Assembly (NCBI RefSeq): GCF_022227765.1
Contig: NZ_JAJMLZ010000005.1
Span: forward strand, 186,001-250,000
Source: Ectothiorhodospira shaposhnikovii
GTDB taxonomy: Bacteria > Pseudomonadota > Gammaproteobacteria > Ectothiorhodospirales > Ectothiorhodospiraceae
DNA length: 64,000 nt
Direction of reading: 5' to 3'
Position 1 is the stretch's first letter. Each line of letters opens with the position of its first letter. The position numbers and the translations under genes were made by a program. This document shows, in pieces, positions 1,283-20,955 of this stretch. The notes under the pieces were generated by a model. It worked only from the letters and a program-made list of their open reading frames with translations. It was not told where the DNA came from and ran no database searches.

Positions 1283-3469
1283 ATGGATGCTGCTCCCCTG
1301 CTTGAATCACTCAACGAAGCCCAGCGCGAAGCGGTGGGCAGTCCCTGCGGTCCTCTGCTGGTGCTGGCCGGTGCCGGCAGCGGCAAGACCCGCGTCCTGG
1401 TCCATCGGGTGGCCTGGCTGATCCAGGTGGAGGGACTCTCGCCCCACAGTATCCTCGCCGTGACCTTCACCAACAAGGCCGCCGGTGAGATGCGCGGGCG
1501 GCTGGAGAGCCTGCTGGGCATCCCGCCCCGGGGACTGTGGGTGGGGACCTTCCACGGTCTGGCCCATCGCCTGCTGCGTACCCACTGGCGCGAGGCCGGC
1601 CTGCCGCAAGCCTTTCAGATCCTCGATTCGGAGGATCAGTTCCGCCTGGTGAAGCGGGTACTCAAATCCCTGGAGCTGGACGAGGCCCGCTGGGTGCCCC
1701 GGCAGATGCAGTGGTACATCAACAGCCGCAAGGATGAAGGGGTACGGCCCGAACACATGCAGGACACCGGCGATCCGGTGAACCGGCAGATGATTCGCAT
1801 CTACAGCGCCTACGAGGCCGCCTGCCGTCGCGCCGGGGTGGTGGATTTCGCCGAATTGCTGCTGCGCAGCTTGGAGCTGTTGCGGGACAACCCCGACCTG
1901 CTGGAACACTATCGCCATCGCTTCCGCCATATCCTGGTGGACGAGTTCCAGGATACCAATGCGATCCAGTATGCCTGGTTGCGACTGCTGGCGGGTGAGC
2001 GCACGCCGGTGTTTGCCGTCGGCGACGACGATCAGTCCATCTACGGCTGGCGCGGTGCCCGCATCGAGCACATCCAGAAATTCTGCCGTGACTTTCCGGG
2101 TGCCCGCACCGTGCGCCTGGAGCAGAATTACCGCTCCACCGGGACCATCCTCCAGGCCGCCAATGCCCTGATCCGCAACAACGGTGAGCGTCTGGGCAAG
2201 GAGCTGTGGACCGAGGATACCGCCGGTGCTCCGGTCACCCTCTATGCGGCCTACAACGAGCATGACGAGGCCCGCTTCGTGCTGGACCAGATCCGTGCCT
2301 GGCGGGCGGCGGGTGGCGCCTGCCGCGACGTGGCCATTCTCTACCGGTCCAATGCCCAGTCCCGGGTGTTCGAGGAGGTGCTGATCCAGGCCGCCGTGCC
2401 CTACCGCGTCTATGGCGGGCTGCGCTTTTTCGAACGGGCGGAAATCAAGGACGCCCTGGGGTATCTGCGCCTGGTGGAAAACCGGGCGGATGACACCGCC
2501 CTGGAGCGGGTCATCAACCAGCCGGCCCGGGGGTTGGGAGAGCGGACCCTGGCCCTGATCCGGGAGCAGGCCCGTGAACAGGGCAGCAGCCTGTGGGCGG
2601 CCGCCGACCGTCTGTTGTCGCAGGGGACCCTGACCGCCCGCGCCGGCAATGCCCTGCGCGGCTTCATGCAACGGATCGATGCCATGCAGCAGGCCTGTCA
2701 GGGCATTGAACTCCACGAACAGGTGGAACATGTGGTGGCCCATTCCGGTCTGAGGGAACACTATGCCCAGGAGAAGGGTGAAAAGGCCCAGACCCGGCTG
2801 GACAACCTGGACGAACTGGTCAGTGCCGCCAGGGGCTTCGTGCCCGATGGCGAGGCCCAGGGAGACATGTCGCCCCTGACCGCCTTTCTCTCCCATGCCG
2901 CCCTGGAGGCGGGGGAAGGGGAGGCGGACCCCTGGGAGGACTGCATCCAGCTCATGACCCTGCATTCCGCCAAGGGGCTGGAGTTTCCGCTCGTGTTCCT
3001 GGTGGGCATGGAGGAGGGGCTGTTTCCCCATCGCATGTCCCTGGACGAACCCGGGCGCCTGGAAGAGGAGCGGCGACTGGCCTACGTGGGCATCACCCGC
3101 GCCTGTCGCCGGTTGGTGATGAGCTATGCGGAGACCCGTCGGCTGCATGGCCGGGAGACCTATAACGCCCCCTCCCGCTTTGTTGGGGAGCTGCCTGCCG
3201 AACTGTTGGAGGATGTCCGGCCCCGGGCCATGATCCGGCGCCCGATGCCCGAGAGTCCGGCCCGGCCCCCGGCGCGACCGTCTCCGTTCCGGGCACCGCC
3301 GCAGGAGGGTGGGCTGTCCATGGGCGCCCGGGTGCGTCATCCCAAGTTCGGGGAGGGCGTGATCACCGACCTGGAAGGGCAGGGCAAGTCGGCCCGGGTC
3401 CAGGTAAGATTTGCCGGCCAGGGCAGCAAGTGGCTGGTGGTGGGCTTTGCCAAGCTTGAGCCCATCTGA
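1283..3469 (+). CDS. uvrD: ATP-dependent DNA helicase II (UvrD/Rep family)
   Basis: Superfamily 1A 3'-5' helicase of nucleotide excision and mismatch repair. It is 728 residues from the ATG at 1283; E. coli UvrD is 720. The open frame extends upstream to 1181, but only from 1283 does the protein start like UvrD (MDAAPLLESLNEAQREAV). Seen: Q-motif and Walker A (LVLAGAGSGKTR), motif Ia (TFTNKAAGEM), DEFQDTN (motif II), GDDDQSIYGWRGA (motif III), QNYRST (motif IV), the TLHSAKGLEFPLVF block and VGITRA (motif VI). The C-terminal tail ends in the small Tudor-like domain (GARVRHPKFGEGVI...). The start is divergent from sucA. About 28 bases separate it from the following TRAP-type gene, so they could be co-transcribed. 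Confidence 0.95.
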   Translation: MDAAPLLESLNEAQREAVGSPCGPLLVLAGAGSGKTRVLVHRVAWLIQVEGLSPHSILAVTFTNKAAGEMRGRLESLLGIPPRGLWVGTFHGLAHRLLRTHWREAGLPQAFQILDSEDQFRLVKRVLKSLELDEARWVPRQMQWYINSRKDEGVRPEHMQDTGDPVNRQMIRIYSAYEAACRRAGVVDFAELLLRSLELLRDNPDLLEHYRHRFRHILVDEFQDTNAIQYAWLRLLAGERTPVFAVGDDDQSIYGWRGARIEHIQKFCRDFPGARTVRLEQNYRSTGTILQAANALIRNNGERLGKELWTEDTAGAPVTLYAAYNEHDEARFVLDQIRAWRAAGGACRDVAILYRSNAQSRVFEEVLIQAAVPYRVYGGLRFFERAEIKDALGYLRLVENRADDTALERVINQPARGLGERTLALIREQAREQGSSLWAAADRLLSQGTLTARAGNALRGFMQRIDAMQQACQGIELHEQVEHVVAHSGLREHYAQEKGEKAQTRLDNLDELVSAARGFVPDGEAQGDMSPLTAFLSHAALEAGEGEADPWEDCIQLMTLHSAKGLEFPLVFLVGMEEGLFPHRMSLDEPGRLEEERRLAYVGITRACRRLVMSYAETRRLHGRETYNAPSRFVGELPAELLEDVRPRAMIRRPMPESPARPPARPSPFRAPPQEGGLSMGARVRHPKFGEGVITDLEGQGKSARVQVRFAGQGSKWLVVGFAKLEPI

Positions 3470-13983: not shown

Positions 13984-16686
13984 GTGAACACTTCATCTCC
14001 CCTGATCCTGGTGGACGGATCTTCCTACCTCTACCGCGCCTTCCATGCCCTGCCTCCCCTGACCAATTCCCGCGGCGAGCCCACCGGGGCGATCTATGGT
14101 GTGGCCGGCATGTTGCGTAAGCTGATCGGTGAGTATCAGCCCAGCCACATGGCCGTGATCTTCGATGCCAAGGGCCGGACCTTCCGCGATGATCTCTATG
14201 CCGAGTACAAGGCCCATCGCCCACCCATGCCGGAGGAGCTGTCGGCCCAGGTGGCGCCCCTGCACGCGCTGGTACAGGCCATGGGCATTCCCATGCTGGT
14301 GGTGGCCGGCGTGGAGGCCGACGACGTCATCGGCACTCTGACCCGGCAGGCCCGCCGGGCGGGCATGGAGGTGATCATTTCCACCGGCGACAAGGACCTG
14401 GCCCAGCTGGTGGAGCCGGGGGTGACCTTGGTCAACACCATGAACGGCACCGTGATGGACGAGGCCGGGGTGGAGGAGAAGTTCGGTGTCCCCCCGGCGC
14501 GCATCGTGGATTACCTGACCCTGGTGGGAGATGCCGTGGACAATGTCCCCGGTGTGGACAAGGTGGGTCCGAAGACGGCGGTGAAATGGCTCAAGGCCCA
14601 TGGCAGTCTGGACGAGATCATGGCCCGGGCCGACGAGATCAAGGGCAAGGTGGGGGAAAACCTGCGCACCGCCCTGGCCTGGTTGCCCCTGTCCCGGGAG
14701 CTGGTCACGGTGCGCTGTGACGTGGCACTGGACCGGGAGCCTTTGGACCTTCAGTTGCAGGGGGCCGACACGTCGCAATTGCGGGAGTTGTTGGCTCGTC
14801 TGGAGTTCCGCCAATGGCAGGCCGAGCTGGAAGGGGGCGAACCGGTCCCCGAGCCGGACCCTGACGCGGCGCCCGAGGTCCGTTATGAAACCATCCTGGA
14901 AGCGGAGCAGCTGGAGCGCTGGATGACGCGACTGGCCGAGGCGCCGCTGTTCGCCTTCGACACCGAAACCACCAGCCTGGACTACATGCAGGCCCGGGTG
15001 GTGGGACTGTCCTTCAGCGTGACCCCCCATGAGGCGGCCTATCTGCCCCTGGCCCACGACTATGGGGATGTACCGGACCAACTGCCCCTGGACGAGACCC
15101 TGGAGAAGCTGCGCCCCCTGCTGGAAGATCCGGACCGACCCAAGCTGGGGCATCATCTGAAATACGATCGCAATGTCCTGCTCAACCACGGCATCGAGCT
15201 GCGGGGCATCACCCATGACACCATGCTGGCCTCCTACGTGCTCAACAGTACCGCCGGGCGCCATGACATGGACAGTCTGGCCCAGCGCTGCCTGGGGCTG
15301 AAGACCATCCACTACGAAGACGTGGCCGGCAAGGGGGCGAAGCAGATCCCGTTCTCCCAGGTGCGGCTGGACGAGGCCGCCCCCTATGCGGCCGAGGATG
15401 CGGACATCACCTTGCGGCTGCACCGGCATTTCTGGCCCCGGCTCAAGGACCTGGAGGGGCAGCGGCGGATCTACGAAACCCTCGAAATCCCCCTGGTCCC
15501 GGTACTCTCCCGGATGGAGCGAACCGGGGTGCTGGTGGACCCGGAACTGCTGTTCACCCAGAGTCATGAACTGGCCGACCGCATGGGCCAGATCGAGCGG
15601 GAGGCCTACGATCTGGCCGGCGCCGCCTTCAACCTGAGCTCACCCAAGCAGATTCAGGAGATCCTGTTCGAGCGCCAGCAGTTGCCTGTGATCCGCAAGA
15701 CCCCCAAGGGCCAGCCCTCCACCGCCGAGGATGTCCTGGAACAGCTGGCCCTGGACTACCCTCTGCCGCGCCTGATCCTGGCGCATCGTGGGCTGTCCAA
15801 GCTCAAGTCCACCTACACCGACAGGCTGCCGGAGCGCATTGACCGGGATACGGGGCGGGTCCACACCTCCTATCATCAGGCGGTGGCCTCCACCGGGCGG
15901 CTGTCTTCCTCGGAGCCCAATCTGCAGAACATTCCCATCCGCACCCCGGAGGGCCGCCGCATCCGGCAGGCCTTCGTTGCGCCCGAGGGGCGCCGGATCC
16001 TGGCGGCGGACTATTCCCAGATCGAACTGCGCATCATGGCCCATCTGTCCGGTGACCGGGGGCTATTGCAGGCCTTTGCCGACGGGCAGGATATCCACCG
16101 GGCCACCGCCGGCGAGGTCTTCGGCGTGGGGGTGGAGGCTGTGACCACGGAGCAGCGGCGGGCGGCCAAGGCCATCAATTTCGGTCTGATCTACGGCATG
16201 TCCGCCTTCGGGCTGGCCCGGCAGCTGGGGATCGACCGGGGTTCGGCCCAGGACTATGTGGACCGTTATTTTGCCCGCTATCCGGGGGTGAAGGCCTACA
16301 TGGACGGCACCCGTGAGCAGGCCCGGGAGCAGGGGTACGTGGAAACCCTGTTCGGGCGTCGTCTCCATCTGCCGGATATCCGTGCCCGCAATGCCCAGGT
16401 GCGCGCCCAGGCGGAGCGGGTGGCCATCAATGCGCCCATGCAGGGCACCGCCGCGGACATCATCAAGCGGGCGATGCTGGCGGTGGACGGATGGATTCAG
16501 GCGGAATCCCCCGGTGTCACCATGATCATGCAGGTGCATGACGAGCTGGTGTTCGAGGTGGATGCGGCCGAGGTGGCCTCGGCCCGGGAGCGGATCACCG
16601 CGCTGATGTGCGGCGCGGCCGAATTGGATGTCCCGCTACTGGTGGAAGTGGGGGTGGGGGACAACTGGGACGCCGCCCATGCCTAG
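13984..16686 (+). CDS. polA: DNA polymerase I
   Basis: A 900-residue repair and Okazaki-fragment polymerase starting at GTG 13984. Residues 1-290 are the 5'-3' nuclease (LILVDGSSYLYRAFHALPPL, then VEADDVIGTL and STGDKDLAQLV). About 300-500 is the 3'-5' exonuclease with an intact FAFDTETTSLD metal site, so proofreading should work. The polymerase domain carries STGRLSSSEPNLQNIP, DYSQIELRIMAH (motif A), KAINFGLIYGMS (motif B) and MQVHDELVFE (motif C). Downstream come the two C-loop small RNAs and then convergent engB, the same neighbourhood as spf (Spot 42) in enterics. Confidence 0.97.
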   Translation: MNTSSPLILVDGSSYLYRAFHALPPLTNSRGEPTGAIYGVAGMLRKLIGEYQPSHMAVIFDAKGRTFRDDLYAEYKAHRPPMPEELSAQVAPLHALVQAMGIPMLVVAGVEADDVIGTLTRQARRAGMEVIISTGDKDLAQLVEPGVTLVNTMNGTVMDEAGVEEKFGVPPARIVDYLTLVGDAVDNVPGVDKVGPKTAVKWLKAHGSLDEIMARADEIKGKVGENLRTALAWLPLSRELVTVRCDVALDREPLDLQLQGADTSQLRELLARLEFRQWQAELEGGEPVPEPDPDAAPEVRYETILEAEQLERWMTRLAEAPLFAFDTETTSLDYMQARVVGLSFSVTPHEAAYLPLAHDYGDVPDQLPLDETLEKLRPLLEDPDRPKLGHHLKYDRNVLLNHGIELRGITHDTMLASYVLNSTAGRHDMDSLAQRCLGLKTIHYEDVAGKGAKQIPFSQVRLDEAAPYAAEDADITLRLHRHFWPRLKDLEGQRRIYETLEIPLVPVLSRMERTGVLVDPELLFTQSHELADRMGQIEREAYDLAGAAFNLSSPKQIQEILFERQQLPVIRKTPKGQPSTAEDVLEQLALDYPLPRLILAHRGLSKLKSTYTDRLPERIDRDTGRVHTSYHQAVASTGRLSSSEPNLQNIPIRTPEGRRIRQAFVAPEGRRILAADYSQIELRIMAHLSGDRGLLQAFADGQDIHRATAGEVFGVGVEAVTTEQRRAAKAINFGLIYGMSAFGLARQLGIDRGSAQDYVDRYFARYPGVKAYMDGTREQAREQGYVETLFGRRLHLPDIRARNAQVRAQAERVAINAPMQGTAADIIKRAMLAVDGWIQAESPGVTMIMQVHDELVFEVDAAEVASARERITALMCGAAELDVPLLVEVGVGDNWDAAHA

Positions 16687-16732
16687 GGAAGCGCCGCACG
16701 ATCCCTCGGTCATCGCTTCCGGCATGCCGTCG

Positions 16733-16760
16733 CTGGATTCCCGCTTTCGCAGGAATGACG
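16733..16760. repeat. Degenerate REP family A palindrome
   Basis: One arm-pair of the dispersed repeat (GATTCCCGCTTTCGCAGG followed by AATGACG) just downstream of the polA stop. The G-to-A change in the second arm (CGCAGGAA instead of CGCGGGAG) weakens the stem. Confidence 0.5.
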
Positions 16761-16944
16761 CATTCAGGGCGGCCCTGCCCCTGGGTGGAGGGGCGGCGAT
16801 GGCGGAGGTGTCCCGGCCAGGGCGTTCCCGGTGGCGGAGGTGCCTGTCCCGGTCCTGATGTTCCTGTCGGAATCCGCTGAAAACGGCGCTGAATCCGCCC
16901 TGATAGGCCCCTTTTTTGAGAGATCTTTCACAGATCCGAAAAGT

Positions 16945-16973
16945 CCCGCCGGCATCAAGAACTTCCCGGCGGG
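16945..16973. other. Perfect 8-bp inverted repeat upstream of the small RNAs
   Basis: CCCGCCGG (16945-16952) and CCGGCGGG (16966-16973) enclose a 13-base loop. No U-run follows, so it is not a classic terminator. It could end or stabilise the polA message, or bind a regulator of the first small RNA, whose 5' end must lie just to the right. The rest of 16687-16944 holds nothing I can identify. Confidence 0.4.
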
Positions 16974-16989
16974 CAGATAGTCTTTAATC

Positions 16990-17105
16990 AGTGAGCACCA
17001 TTTCCATGGGTGCTCCCCGCTTAACCCCCTAGGCGGGAAGCTCTGACTCCCCCAAGTCGAGCCCAACCTGACCCCGGACCACGTAAGTGCTCCGGGGTTT
17101 TTTTT
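16990..17105 (+). ncRNA. C-rich-loop small RNA candidate, copy 1 (polA-engB intergenic)
   Basis: About 116 nt of tightly packed hairpins: AGCACC/GGTGCT (16994-17014); an 8-bp stem CCCGCTTA/TAGGCGGG (with one U-G pair) whose loop is ACCCCC (17016-17037); GCTC-GACT/AGTC-GAGC with one bulge and loop CCCCCA (17040-17062); and a terminator stem CCCCGGA/TCCGGGG followed by eight T (17072-17105). C-rich loops presented on short stems are typical of small RNAs that pair with G-rich ribosome-binding sites. From memory, Xanthomonas sX13 has this design and size and also lies downstream of polA, and enteric Spot 42 occupies the same polA-engB gap. Copy 2 follows directly. The 5' end is estimated; no promoter was confidently recognised. 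Confidence 0.7.
17072..17105 (+). terminator. Rho-independent terminator of small RNA copy 1
   Basis: Stem CCCCGGA (17072-17078) with TCCGGGG (17091-17097), an inner CAC/GTG extension, then an uninterrupted run of eight T at 17098-17105. Confidence 0.85.
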
Positions 17106-17174
17106 CGGTACGCGGAAAATTTCTTCTTTACCCGACCTATTTGGTGAACCATGTGCGAAACGGGGAGTCATATC

Positions 17175-17298
17175 ACACAAGCGCTGCAGCCCGGCGCTTC
17201 CCGCTTACCTCCCTGAGCGGGATGGCTCGAACTCCCCCAAGTCGAGCCGGATTCTGCCCCGGTCCACGCCAACCCCCAATGGCAGCCGGGGCTTTTTT
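17175..17298 (+). ncRNA. C-rich-loop small RNA candidate, copy 2
   Basis: Same architecture as copy 1, diverged in sequence but with compensating changes in stems: AAGCGC/GCGCTT (17179-17199); CCCGCTTA/TGAGCGGG with one U-G pair and loop CCTCCC (17200-17221); GGCTCG-ACT/AGT-CGAGCC with a bulged A and loop CCCCCA (17224-17248, loop 17234-17239 identical to copy 1); terminator stem GCCCCGG/CCGGGGC with an inner GCCA/TGGC hairpin whose loop is ACCCCCAA, then six T (17256-17298). Loop CCTCCC is the complement of a Shine-Dalgarno core. A possible -10 (TCATAT, 17168-17173) lies close to the estimated 5' end. Its end abuts the stop codon of convergent engB. Confidence 0.7.
17256..17298 (+). terminator. 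Rho-independent terminator of small RNA copy 2
   Basis: GCCCCGG (17256-17262) pairs with CCGGGGC (17286-17292), an internal GCCA/TGGC stem sits within, and six T follow at 17293-17298. The last T residues are part of the engB stop codon complement. Confidence 0.85.
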
Positions 17299-17953
17299 AT
17301 GCCTCTTCCATGGGGCATGCAGGGTTTTCTTCAGGGAACAGCCACCCGTCCAGTACGGAATGGGCATCATCCACCCCCTGTTTCTTCAGAGAAGAAAACG
17401 GCTGCACCGTTGCCTCCACTCCCTCGCCGCCGAGGGTCCGGGCCACTTGACGCACCGTATCCATCACCGGCCCCCGCTTGAGCTTGTCGGACTTGGTCAG
17501 CAGCACGTGCAGGGGAAGTCGGCGGGCATGGGCCCAGCCGATCATCTGCCAGTCATGGTCCGTCAGGGGATGACGGATATCCATGACCAGCACCAGCCCT
17601 TGCAGACAGGTGCGACGGGTCAGATAATCCTCCATCAATTTCCCCCAGCGACGCCGCATCGCTTCCGGCACCTTGGCATAGCCGTAGCCGGGCAGGTCCA
17701 CCAGTCGACGTTCACCATCCAGGGCAAAAAAATTGATCAACTGGGTTCTACCGGGTGTCTTACTGGTGCGCGCCAGGGCGCGTTGCTGGCACAATGTGTT
17801 GATGGCGCTGGACTTGCCCGAATTGGACCGACCGGCAAAGGCCACTTCACGGCCCTGCTCCGGTGGCAGGCCCTTGAGGCTGGCGGCGCTGGTGAGGAAT
17901 TCCGCCTGGTGATAGGCCGGGTTCATGGATGATCTGACTCGCTGTGTTGTCAT
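17297..17953 (-). CDS. engB: Ribosome biogenesis GTP-binding protein EngB/YsxC
   Basis: A 218-residue essential TRAFAC-class GTPase of ribosome assembly and division. Seen: G1 FAGRSNSGKSSAINTL, a G2-region threonine in TSKTPGRTQLINFF, G3 LVDLPGYGYA, G4 TKSDK and the G5-like PFSSLKKQG. The start at 17953 gives MTTQRVRSSMNPAYHQAEF; M10 is an alternative. It converges on polA and the two small RNAs. Upstream it is divergent from cytochrome c4, with an inverted repeat CCGTCG/CGACGG (17964-17985) between them. Confidence 0.93.
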   Translation of the reverse strand: MTTQRVRSSMNPAYHQAEFLTSAASLKGLPPEQGREVAFAGRSNSGKSSAINTLCQQRALARTSKTPGRTQLINFFALDGERRLVDLPGYGYAKVPEAMRRRWGKLMEDYLTRRTCLQGLVLVMDIRHPLTDHDWQMIGWAHARRLPLHVLLTKSDKLKRGPVMDTVRQVARTLGGEGVEATVQPFSSLKKQGVDDAHSVLDGWLFPEENPACPMEEA

Positions 17954-17963
17954 GTCGGGTTGA

Positions 17964-18000
17964 CCGTCGTCGACTTTTGCGACGGTGGAGTTAGTATGAT
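17964..18000. promoter_or_regulatory. Inverted repeat and -10-like element between engB and cytochrome c4
   Basis: CCGTCG (17964-17969) and CGACGG (17980-17985) form a 6-bp inverted repeat. Just downstream, TATGAT (17995-18000) preceded by AG resembles a -10 hexamer for the cytochrome c4 message, but no good -35 sits at 17 bases. This could be an activator-dependent promoter. Low certainty. Confidence 0.3.
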
Positions 18001-18098
18001 ATACATTGCGACTATTTTTGAGGCTGCGCCCGGCGCGCGAGTCAGTGTCAGGTTACCAACGAAGCGCTTATTGTTTCAGGTTCAGGAGTCAACCCACG

Positions 18099-18722
18099 AT
18101 GAAAAAACTTGTCCTTATCGCCGTCGCCACACTGGGTATGAGCATGTCGGCGTCGCTGCTGGCCGAGCCCGGTGACCCGGTGCGCGGCAAGGAACTCTCC
18201 AGCCCCTGCGTGGCCTGCCACCAGGCCGACGGCAACAGCGTGGTCCCGGCGTGGCCGAAGATCGCCGGCAAGGACGAGGCCTACCTGCTCAAGCAGCTGC
18301 GCGACTACAAGGCCGGTCGTCGTAGCCACGCCCTGATGAACCCCCAGGTCGCCGTGCTGGATGAGGAAGACCTGCCTCACCTGGCCGCCTACTTCGCCAG
18401 CCAGACCCCCGCACCGGGCCGTACCGCCGCCAGTGCGGAAAAGCTGGCTCTGGGCAAGCAGATCTACTTCGGCGGCAATACCGCCACGGGTGTGGCCGCC
18501 TGCGTGGCCTGCCATGGCCCCAACGGCAAGGGCAACCCCGCCGCCGTGTTCCCCAGCGTGTCCGCCCAGCACGGCGTGTACACCCTGGACCAGCTCAAGC
18601 AGTTCCGTGATGGTCTGCGTGCCAATGATCCCGGCCGCATGATGCGTAACGTGGCCGGCCGCATGACCGACGAGGAAATGTCCGCCGTGGCAGAGTACAT
18701 CGCCACTCTGCCGGCCAAGTAA
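18099..18722 (+). CDS. Dihaem cytochrome c4
   Basis: A 207-residue periplasmic dihaem electron carrier, normally feeding terminal oxidases in gammaproteobacteria. The ATG at 18099 is preceded by AGGAG and starts a signal peptide (MKKLVLIAVATLGMSMSASLLA) cut before EPGDP. Two class I cytochrome c domains are visible, each with a CVACH haem site and a downstream methionine ligand region (SHALMNPQ; PGRMMRNVAGRM). The frame upstream of 18099 is not family-like and was left out. A strong terminator follows, separating it from resB-ccsB, whose products would attach its haems. Confidence 0.92.
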   Translation: MKKLVLIAVATLGMSMSASLLAEPGDPVRGKELSSPCVACHQADGNSVVPAWPKIAGKDEAYLLKQLRDYKAGRRSHALMNPQVAVLDEEDLPHLAAYFASQTPAPGRTAASAEKLALGKQIYFGGNTATGVAACVACHGPNGKGNPAAVFPSVSAQHGVYTLDQLKQFRDGLRANDPGRMMRNVAGRMTDEEMSAVAEYIATLPAK

Positions 18723-18744
18723 GACCGGATCGGCAAGACCTTTG

Positions 18745-18773
18745 AAAGGGTGGCCCGGCGGCCACCCTTTTTT
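18745..18773 (+). terminator. Rho-independent terminator after cytochrome c4
   Basis: AAAGGGTGGCC and GGCCACCCTTT form an 11-bp stem around CGGC, followed by T residues. Confidence 0.9.
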
Positions 18774-18915
18774 GATTCCATCCGGCAGGTCCCGAGTCCC
18801 GGGGGTATTTGATCCAGGACAACAAGACCTGCTGATCACGTGGTTTTTGTGCCCGGTGGCAGAACTTGTCTGCCCTTGAGGGTCAAACAGGCAACCACTT
18901 TCCGACCCGAGAATC

Positions 18916-20955
18916 ATGAGCAGCACGCCCACCGACCCGACGCCGCCAGGCCGGCGTTCCACCTTTGCCGTTCTGATGGCCTTCCTCGGGTCCATGGGCC
19001 TGGCCATCACGTTGCTGGTTGCGCTGGCCGTGGCCTCGGTGGTGGGTACCGTCCTGCAGCAGAACCAGTCCTACGAAACCTACCTGCTGGACTACGGCCC
19101 CTTCTGGCACGAACTGTTCCGTACTTTGGGCATCTATCACGTCTACTCCGCCGGCTGGTATCTGCTCATTCTCGTCTTTCTGGTGATCTCCACCAGCGTG
19201 TGTGTCTATCGCAGCACGCCGGCCATGATCCGTGACATGAGCCGGTTCCGGCTCGGGGTGAAGGACAAGTCCCTGCGCAGCTTTCAGCACAACGTGCAGC
19301 GGGATGCCCATCCCGAGGCGCCGGCGGTGCTCATGTCCCGGGCCGAGGCCGTGTTCCGGGCCCGGGGTTATCGTGTGCGGCAGGCGGATCAGGGTGATCA
19401 CCGGGTGCTGTCGGCCATGCGCGGCAGTGCCGGCCGTCTGGGCTATTTCTTCACCCATGTGGCCATCGTGGTCATCTGTATCGGTGGTCTGGTGGACGGG
19501 CGTCTGCCCTTGATGCTGGCCGAACTCACCGGCCGACTGGAGATCGAAACCCGTCAGGTTCCCGTCTCGGAGATTCCCGAGCAGAGCCGTGTCTCCGTTT
19601 CCAACCCCTCATTCCGTGGCTCGGTGGAGATCCCGGAAGGGCAGCGGGTGGACGTGGCCTTCGTGACCATGCGGGACGGCTATGTGGTTCAGGAACTGCC
19701 GTTTCACATCGAGGTGAAGGCATTTCGGGTGGAGCGCCACGCCACCGGCCAGGAGCGTTCCTTTGAAACCGATCTGGTTATCCATGATGAATTGCTGGAT
19801 GAACCCCTGGCGCATACCATCAGCGTGAACCATCCGCTGGTGCACCGGGGCTATACCATCTATCAGGCCAGTTTCAGGGACGGAGGGTCCCGCCTGAACC
19901 TGGACATGCATCCCCTGGGGCGGGGCGCCGACCGTCCCATGCCGCTTAATGCCCGCGTTTTCGGCACCTACTCCCAGACCGGTGAAGATGGCACCCGCCT
20001 GCGGGTGGAGTTCACCGATTTCAACGACACCAATCCGACTCTGATCGAGGAAGACGGCGTGCGCGAGCGCATGGACATGGGGCCGAGCTTCGAGTACGTG
20101 GTCCGGGACAGCAGCGGTGCCGGCTGGTTTCATCGCAACTTCCAGCAACCCATTGAACGGGATGGCCGCCGGTATCTGCTCAGTGGTGTGCGGCAGAATC
20201 CGGCGGAACCCTTCAGCTTCCTCTATATCCCCCTGGACCCCCAGGGGGATGGCGTGGATCGCTTCATGCGCTTTCTGGCTCGGCTGACCGATCCCGCCGT
20301 GGTGGCCGATGTGGTGGACGAGGCCACCCGGACCGCCGCCGGACAATTCGAGGGGGTGGATGAAGGAATCCGTGCCCAGGTGGCCGAGACCATGCGCGGT
20401 CTGCTGGAAACCTTTACCGTCGGCGGCTATGAAGAGGTGATCGCTCAGGTACAGGAACAGGCACCCGAGGGACAATGGGACCGGATGGCGGATATTTTCC
20501 TCCGGATCCTCAACTCCGGGCTGGATGCCATCTATCTGCGGGTGCTGGCGGAAGAAGGGATCGAGGTGGTCAGCGACGAGGATGAACGGTTTCTGGAAGA
20601 TGCCCTGCGGGCCATCAATGCCCTGCCGTTCTACGGCTCGCCGTTCTTCCTGCGCCTGAACGATTTCGAGCATATCCAGGCCTCCGGCCTGATGATCACC
20701 CGGGCCCCCGGGCAGGCGGTGGTCTATGCCGGCAGCGTGATGCTGATCCTGGGCATCTTCCTGCTCCTGTATGTGAGCCATCGCCGTTGCTGGCTCTGGG
20801 TACAGCCCCGTCCCGAGGGTTCGGGGCTGGTGCTGGCGGGGACCAGCAACCGCAACACAACGGATTTCAACAGGGAATTCGATGAAATATCCCGGGCCGT
20901 TCTGGGTGAGTCACGGCCCATGCCGGCGGATCAGGATGCCCGCGCCCGACCATGA
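18916..20955 (+). CDS. resB: Cytochrome c biogenesis protein ResB/Ccs1
   Basis: A 679-residue membrane protein of System II cytochrome c maturation, which with CcsB carries haem across the membrane and attaches it to apocytochromes. Seen: TM1 about 18-40 (FAVLMAFLGSMGLAITLLV), the ResB signature around TVLQQNQSYETYLLDYGPFWHELF, TM2 about 73-93 (GWYLLILVFLVISTSVCVYR), TM3 about 176-194 and a final TM near 600-620 (VVYAGSVMLILGIFLLLYV). Between TM3 and TM4 lies the large periplasmic domain with VNHPLVHRGYTIYQASF, a conserved ResB block. The next gene, ccsB, starts 21 bases after the stop. Confidence 0.93.
   Translation: MSSTPTDPTPPGRRSTFAVLMAFLGSMGLAITLLVALAVASVVGTVLQQNQSYETYLLDYGPFWHELFRTLGIYHVYSAGWYLLILVFLVISTSVCVYRSTPAMIRDMSRFRLGVKDKSLRSFQHNVQRDAHPEAPAVLMSRAEAVFRARGYRVRQADQGDHRVLSAMRGSAGRLGYFFTHVAIVVICIGGLVDGRLPLMLAELTGRLEIETRQVPVSEIPEQSRVSVSNPSFRGSVEIPEGQRVDVAFVTMRDGYVVQELPFHIEVKAFRVERHATGQERSFETDLVIHDELLDEPLAHTISVNHPLVHRGYTIYQASFRDGGSRLNLDMHPLGRGADRPMPLNARVFGTYSQTGEDGTRLRVEFTDFNDTNPTLIEEDGVRERMDMGPSFEYVVRDSSGAGWFHRNFQQPIERDGRRYLLSGVRQNPAEPFSFLYIPLDPQGDGVDRFMRFLARLTDPAVVADVVDEATRTAAGQFEGVDEGIRAQVAETMRGLLETFTVGGYEEVIAQVQEQAPEGQWDRMADIFLRILNSGLDAIYLRVLAEEGIEVVSDEDERFLEDALRAINALPFYGSPFFLRLNDFEHIQASGLMITRAPGQAVVYAGSVMLILGIFLLLYVSHRRCWLWVQPRPEGSGLVLAGTSNRNTTDFNREFDEISRAVLGESRPMPADQDARARP

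Follow-up and report, generated by a model that had tools for sequence, protein, structure and literature searches.

Tandem C-rich-loop small RNA genes in the polA–engB gap and a proposed polA-linked superfamily with sigma-E-type promoter motifs

The gap between polA and engB in the 64-kb stretch of DNA analysed here (the window), from a purple sulfur bacterium, holds two tandem, diverged RNA genes of four hairpins each, termed copy 1 (a) and copy 2 (b). By computation, they are folded members of a covarying family, belong to a large polA-linked group and have a conserved promoter motif, in a genome that encodes both RpoE and Hfq. They probably represent tandem trans-acting small RNA (sRNA) genes that are driven by RpoE, end at their own terminators and use their loops to block G-rich ribosome-binding sites; from the computed features we infer transcription, RpoE dependence, anti-Shine–Dalgarno (anti-SD) pairing and a division of labour between the copies. 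This kind of RNA is already known as Rfam family RF02837 (anti-hemB, ncS04), and a shared polA locus of sRNAs is already in print (PMC3771888, in its accessible text). New in this study are the breadth of the family, the promoter, and the links to ErsA and sX13. We propose a polA-linked C-loop sRNA superfamily, and the window copies agree with it in model match, locus, C-rich loops and promoter.

Both RNA genes lie between polA and the convergent engB (ysxC/yihA), beyond which homologues of cytochrome c and resB follow; the source genome (G000) comprises 3.34 Mb in 39 contigs. An earlier note on the same DNA had described tandem copies in this gap, which is borne out, and its coordinates proved correct to within a few bases (Table 1). 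Farther along, a stem-loop with a T-run occupies positions 18673–18781, close to the end of the cytochrome c gene; it is probably an ordinary terminator, and its Rfam matches to ncS025 and MicX are weak and below the cut-offs.

Table 1 Features of the polA–engB region, in window positions; the start coordinates of both sRNA copies are predicted
Feature	Position	Strand	Basis or remark
polA	13984–16686	+	ORF of 900 aa, 59.8% identity to E. coli polA product; same-strand neighbour 5' of the RNAs
CRP/FNR-like palindrome, TGAGA-N6-TCACA	16917–16932		9 of 10 consensus letters; upstream of copy 1
Sigma-E/AlgU-type promoter motif of copy 1, AGAACTT-N15-GTCTTT	16958–16985	+	Motif scan
Predicted sRNA copy 1 (a)	16990–17105	+	About 116 nt; fold z -6.85; RF02837 36.5 bits; R2 78.2 bits
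Copy 1, hairpin 1	16993–17015	+	Free folding
Copy 1, hairpin 2, 8-bp stem, loop ACCCCC	17016–17037	+	Free folding
Copy 1, hairpin 3, bulged, loop CCCCCA	17040–17062	+	Free folding
Copy 1, hairpin 4, terminator stem and T-run	17070–17105	+	Free folding
Sigma-E/AlgU-type promoter motif of copy 2, TGAACCA-N15-GTCATA	17145–17172	+	Motif scan
Predicted sRNA copy 2 (b)	17178–17300	+	Fold z -5.49 (for 17172–17300); RF02837 50.6 bits; R2 113.2 bits
Copy 2, hairpin 1	17180–17198	+	Free folding
Copy 2, hairpin 2, 9-bp stem, loop CCTCCC	17199–17222	+	Free folding
Copy 2, hairpin 3, bulged, loop CCCCCA	17224–17248	+	Free folding
Copy 2, hairpin 4, terminator with C-rich loop ACCCCCAA and T-run	17256–17300	+	Free folding
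engB (ysxC/yihA)	17297–17953	-	ORF of 218 aa, 54.7% identity to E. coli yihA product; convergent neighbour

Unconstrained folding yielded -54.6 kcal/mol for copy 1 and -58.9 kcal/mol for copy 2, and in neither case was any of 200 shuffles as good. The hairpin order and loops that had been described for both copies were reproduced. The accompanying statement that stems differ between copies while pairing is kept applies mainly to hairpins 1 and 4. The copies have almost the same hairpin 2, and what separates their versions of hairpin 3 is chiefly where the bulge sits. Together with covariation in relatives, the fold z-scores and shuffles support the view, already expressed in the earlier note, of a functional RNA with C-rich loops.

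Covariation, whose absence among relatives had been named, along with a lack of expression, as evidence against such an RNA, was evident: none of 500 shuffles scored as high on any of five measures. The alignment comprised 59 matches (56 distinct rows), two of them weak and probably not members. Pairing was found in 95.0% of its cells, a value that leans towards structure because the alignment was fitted to the model; structures slid along the same alignment paired in 24 to 53% of cells. Both sides had changed in 21 of 30 pairs, and the cells with such changes numbered 133 against 37.3 in shuffles. RNAalifold on MAFFT alignments lost hairpin 3, or kept it in a smaller set alone, because its register shifts between genera.

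Folding that needs no alignment points the same way. The family set was drawn from 60 of the stronger RF02837 matches; its 54 distinct copies formed 216 hairpin loops, 176 of them C-rich, and every copy had at least two C-rich loops, compared with 39 of 162 shuffled copies. At class level, the same held for 115 of 117 copies against 42 of 351 shuffled ones, and loops were 55.4% C against 37.2% C. Three matches without the loop pattern, L045 (33.3 bits), L046 (36 bits) and L047 (29.8 bits), were dropped by eye, and L127:300-425 (21.5 bits) was excluded from the class-level promoter and loop counts, yet stands among the rows of model R2 described below.

An Rfam search of positions 15500–19000 returned 12 matches up to E 10. 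Copy 2 exceeds the RF02837 gathering score of 49.5 bits, whereas copy 1 stays below it (E 4e-6) and is filed with copy 2 solely because it is a close paralogue, with 87 of 108 aligned bases identical. Anti-hemB has the CCUCCC-loop hairpin 2 nearly letter for letter, as well as hairpin 3 and the terminator, as in the window copies. Its Rfam model (81 positions) begins at hairpin 2, whereas the window copies also have hairpin 1; the window further differs in having polA upstream and two copies. According to the accessible text of PMC5688073, B. cenocepacia makes ncS04/anti-hemB as a transcript, which is said to bind Hfq and which was unchanged by qPCR in all seven listed conditions, including osmotic stress and low pH. 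The Betaproteobacterial toxic sRNA (RF02278) was rejected as a candidate, at 21.1 and 17.6 bits with a cut-off of 50.

A scan for the hairpin-2 motif produced at least 120 stretches, 80 loci of which were examined. In 50 of these, engB lies within 2.5 kb of the RNA, 49 times convergent as in the window, and 29 loci have none of the four neighbour genes within that distance. Two side observations concern loci away from engB. L177 and L178 carry, at about 2501–2797, two tandem shorter relatives that exceed the RF02837 cut-off; a tmRNA gene is about 1.5 kb away, and neither polA nor engB adjoins them. Comamonadaceae-type loci such as L183, L197 and L229 have the hairpin-2 motif away from engB, followed downstream by a conserved tract GTGTGACAGCAAAA, and most lack a sigma-E-type motif; they are probably a separate paralogous RNA.

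RF02837 matches at E <= 0.001 occur in 45 of 47 family genomes, nine of them over the cut-off; at the same threshold, sub-cut-off matches also appear in 3 of 14 control genomes. The RNA adjoins polA and/or engB in all 31 loci examined (L001–L031, from 30 genomes, L001 and L002 being the same locus). Two copies stand at the locus in 9 of 10 genomes of the genus, the tenth (G003) having one there, and a contig of Ectothiorhodospira mobilis DSM 4180 (L230) carries the same RNA. A second genus has two copies in 5 of 5 genomes, in opposite orientation in three. At L006, L007 and L014 (G041, G042 and G045), the second copy is inverted relative to the first, and engB was not found in the stretches examined. 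In a midpoint-rooted tree of the 54 distinct copies, shown without support values, the a copies of the genus cluster with one G007 copy and the b copies with the other. Because the a and b copies group separately, the duplication seems to date back at least to the origin of the genus. The suggestion that a tandem pair would be new does not stand, given that copy 2 passes RF02837, that the pair recurs in nine genomes of the genus and that some other lineages have two to five copies.

To chart the class, two covariance models were used. R1, with a structure given by hand, was trained on 14 family copies that include those of the window, so that its window score is no test; of 370 class genomes sampled, it matches 145. 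Synteny was assessed at 100 places taken among the R1 matches listed, three genomes contributing two each, and the model itself holds no gene information. At 82 of these places the RNA lies beside polA and/or engB, and at 7 more beside a cytochrome c or resB homologue alone; the other 11 have none of the four genes within 2.5 kb or up to the contig end. R2 was built from 118 class-level matches, with rows aligned by R1 and no copy from the window's family among them. It nevertheless matches both window copies (Table 1). In the class it matches 205 of 370 genomes (200 of the 364 that are good) and 157 of 272 genera. In comparison, 8 of the 40 class-level loci run against Rfam, from the 100 above, reach the RF02837 cut-off. 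Nine genomes from outside the class also had R2 matches, all weak (best E 1.3e-4) and read as background.

Longer arrays also occur, with four copies in L154 (G198) and L126 (G291) and five in L166 (G277). In the last of these (positions 2501–3246), the hairpin 2 loop is GCAA in three of the five copies and ATCAC in one, and the C-rich loop of hairpin 3 is retained in all, a pattern that suggests a division of labour between copies.

Each window copy is preceded by a motif of the form GAAC-N15/16-TC, which we take to be that of sigma-E/AlgU promoters. These promoters are absent from the earlier note and new in this analysis. A pattern covering both of them, written after they had been seen, has just these two matches on the two strands of the 64-kb window. 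Under a looser rule (AAC and TC cores, a spacer of 14 to 18 and at least 8 of 13 letters), the motif turns up in 55 of the 56 distinct upstream stretches of the family, compared with 8.6% of shuffles when any position is allowed; its spacer is 15 in 51 and 16 in 4, and all 55 lie within 7 positions. Class-level copies carry it in 108 of 117 cases, 96 of them at -27 to -33 (shuffles, 12.4% at any position). The source genome encodes RpoE (310.4 bits, cut-off 236.15), and its rpoE gene has AGAACTT-N15-GTCCAT upstream, the same form as in the sRNA promoters.

The motif is less uniform elsewhere. In a mostly betaproteobacterial set, 49 of 77 upstream stretches score at least 9 (shuffles, 7.1%). 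Unlike in the window copies, it is changed or absent in Burkholderia-group anti-hemB copies, with 6 of 9 loci showing GAAACTT-N15/16-ATCATA about 8 bases further upstream. Only 3 of 20 Comamonadaceae-type loci reach a score of 9, these with a spacer of 18, and none of three Cupriavidus loci does so. Such departures, two of the three full sX13 loci discussed below and the flat ncS04 qPCR (PMC5688073, accessible text) count against RpoE control and anti-SD action. The departures in the Burkholderia group, Cupriavidus and the Comamonadaceae type, with the same qPCR, also favour a different explanation, in which the RNAs are real family sRNAs, but a housekeeping sigma factor drives them here and the GAAC..GTC motif is a relic. 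We regard this as unlikely in view of the near-fixed position of the motif across the family and its recurrence in the same form at rpoE. A simple scan of 16680–17310 also found no sigma-70-like site, a weak negative, since the same scan missed terminators that folding shows. Control by RpoE is our preferred reading of the promoter evidence.

The palindrome upstream of copy 1 is CRP/FNR-like. Upstream of copy 2, where the best match has 5 of 10 letters, there is none, and the two copies may therefore answer partly different signals. Of the 56 distinct family upstream stretches, 26 contain a palindrome scoring at least 8 of 10, compared with 2.3% of shuffles; in family loci these palindromes lie at about -87 to -106. 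A separate inverted repeat, CCCGCCGG...CCCGGCGGG at 16946–16974, overlaps the -35 element of copy 1 and is possibly a polA terminator or an operator.

Like the window RNAs, sX13 is described in the accessible text of PMC3771888 as lying downstream of polA and having stable stems with apical C-rich loops. The correspondence in location with sX13 that the earlier note had drawn is correct. Its Rfam model (RF02232) gives 17.5 bits for copy 2, below the gathering score of 50, and no match in the source genome at E <= 0.001. Nonetheless, R1 and R2 match sX13 loci, which upholds relatedness. R2 scores 36.8, 37.0 and 32.9 bits at three loci over the sX13 cut-off and 54.4 bits at one just under it (49.5 of 50); all four are outside its training set and adjoin polA. 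The sX13 model has matches at E <= 0.001 in 15 genomes, six of which (G198, G117, G165, G251, G291 and G065) coincide with a listed R1 place; for G151 and G103, the sX13 model points to another place than the one listed for R1 or R2. Unlike in the window copies, the promoter motif is weak or absent in the three full sX13 loci, with a score of 8 in L301 and below 8 in L302 and L303. The sX13-model locus L304 has no promoter by the rule; by eye, CGAACCT-N15-GTCTTA runs into the match start.

Three sX13 genomes also contain off-locus C-rich-loop RNAs (L340 1268–1378, + strand; L341 1310–1414, - strand; L342 1317–1422, - strand), with R2 scores of 31.0 to 39.1 bits. Two of them weakly match RF02344 ar14 (35.5 and 36.1 bits, cut-off 58.8); two have no promoter motif of at least 8, and in the remaining one the score is 8 and the spacer 17. 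Because these RNAs score alike, an R2 score of about 30 to 39 bits does not by itself establish homology, and the sX13 link therefore leans on the locus and on hits common to two models.

The case for ErsA (Pseudomon-1, RF01719, gathering score 50) is built differently. The Rfam search of 15500–19000 up to E 10 did not list RF01719 among its 12 matches. In G190, a Pseudomonas-type genome by its CrcZ match (306.8 bits), it scores 121.3 bits at a place 103 bp downstream of a polA match; polA was not found in the 3.6-kb stretch at engB of this genome. R2 gives this locus 27.8 bits (E 1.2e-6 in 4.2 kb) and missed it in the whole-genome scan. The scan did list six further genomes of that family, and seven of the places matched in them were examined. 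Five, all lying in the polA–engB gap, are RF01719 (107 to 139 bits); the other two, L347 and L348 (29.0 and 30.5 bits by R2), are not RF01719, do not lie beside polA or engB and lack the motif. At each of the six RF01719 loci a promoter motif scores at least 8; its spacer is 16, and it lies at -56 or -57 relative to the Rfam match. PMC7565897, in its accessible text, reports that ErsA expression is strictly sigma22-dependent. R2 scores for ErsA are low (27.8 to 31.4 bits), and hairpin 2 is nearly absent from the G190 alignment, unlike in the window copies. As such low scores alone do not prove descent, the argument is carried by locus and promoter.

On balance, we lean towards common descent, in which anti-hemB, sX13 and ErsA stem from one ancestral sigma-E-driven RNA gene at the polA–engB locus of Gammaproteobacteria (taken, as in GTDB, to include Betaproteobacteria). 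Tandem duplications to between two and five copies would have allowed the copies to split signals and loop specificities, and the promoter would have altered in the Burkholderia group and disappeared from Comamonadaceae-type copies. This reading is made more probable by the fact that R2 finds ErsA in whole-genome scans, with the same promoter. Rfam has no clan for RF02837, RF02232 or RF01719. In the open-licence literature, we found no family uniting anti-hemB, sX13 and ErsA, and no paper naming ErsA and sX13 together. If true, common descent would make the three one family, with promoter, locus and loops comparable over more than half of the sampled class genomes (205 of 370), and would recast single-species findings as a testable claim, namely that the envelope-stress response has an ancient non-coding arm. 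The tandem copies would offer a natural series for studying how duplicated sRNAs divide work.

Functionally, each window copy would be transcribed from its own promoter by RNA polymerase carrying the envelope-stress sigma factor RpoE, and each transcript would end at its own terminator. The resulting four-hairpin RNA would display C-rich loops of the CUCCC and CCCCC types, which could base-pair with G-rich ribosome-binding sites on target mRNAs and so prevent their translation, the mode of action reported for sX13. The hairpin 3 loop is common to both copies, which differ in other stems and in upstream DNA. This reading draws on three accounts, each in its accessible text: the need for both C-rich loops and G-rich target motifs when sX13 represses specific mRNAs (PMC3771888), the sigma22 dependence of ErsA (PMC7565897), and an analogue among sibling sRNAs of Neisseria (PMC5362039). 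Anti-SD action of the loops is plausible.

The same loops could instead act as a decoy for ribosomes, another sRNA or a protein, with global effects and no specific mRNA targets; several C-rich loops per molecule and up to five copies would suit such titration. We think this improbable, since sX13 acts on specific mRNAs through its loops and their G-rich motifs (PMC3771888, accessible text) and ErsA is reported to bind amrZ mRNA in vitro, the pairing sites being predicted (PMC5819304, likewise). That the elements are merely tandem terminators or structural repeats, giving no free RNA, would fit two convergent genes and the strong terminator at the end of each copy, but is very hard to reconcile with a promoter motif per copy, conserved unpaired loops, three further hairpins, and the transcripts reported for relatives in the accessible texts of PMC5688073, PMC3771888 and PMC7565897. 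Pairing of C-rich loops with target mRNAs is the mechanism we prefer.

Spot 42 (spf) of E. coli occupies the same polA–engB(yihA) gap in the same orientation. The earlier note's comparison with it holds for the location, but relatedness finds no support in the present evidence: the best score in R1 and R2 tests was 13.4 bits, mostly from the terminator, with the C-rich loops of hairpins 2 and 3 missing. RF00021 is not among the Rfam matches up to E 10 at 15500–19000, and the Spot 42 locus has no promoter motif by the rule. The sX13 authors, in the accessible text of PMC3771888, note the polA locus of Spot 42 and the alpha-r7 sRNAs without sequence similarity to sX13. In Neisseria, NmsRA/NmsRB and NgncR_162/163 are tandem sibling sRNAs that repress translation through anti-SD sequences (PMC5362039 and PMC9973317, accessible text). 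The likeness is one of description; the Neisseria RNAs differ in having another locus (dsbB–lrp; PMC5362039, accessible text) and three stem-loops.

The reported action of sX13 is Hfq-independent (PMC3771888, accessible text). The source genome encodes hfq, which is not supported as a target in common with sX13, no four-G run being present within 60 bases upstream of its start, just GGGAG; this too counts against the preferred mechanism. Besides this normal hfq, the genome contains a second, weaker Hfq-like match at L339 (G000:C33:122081-122269; 33.2 bits, cut-off 61.7).
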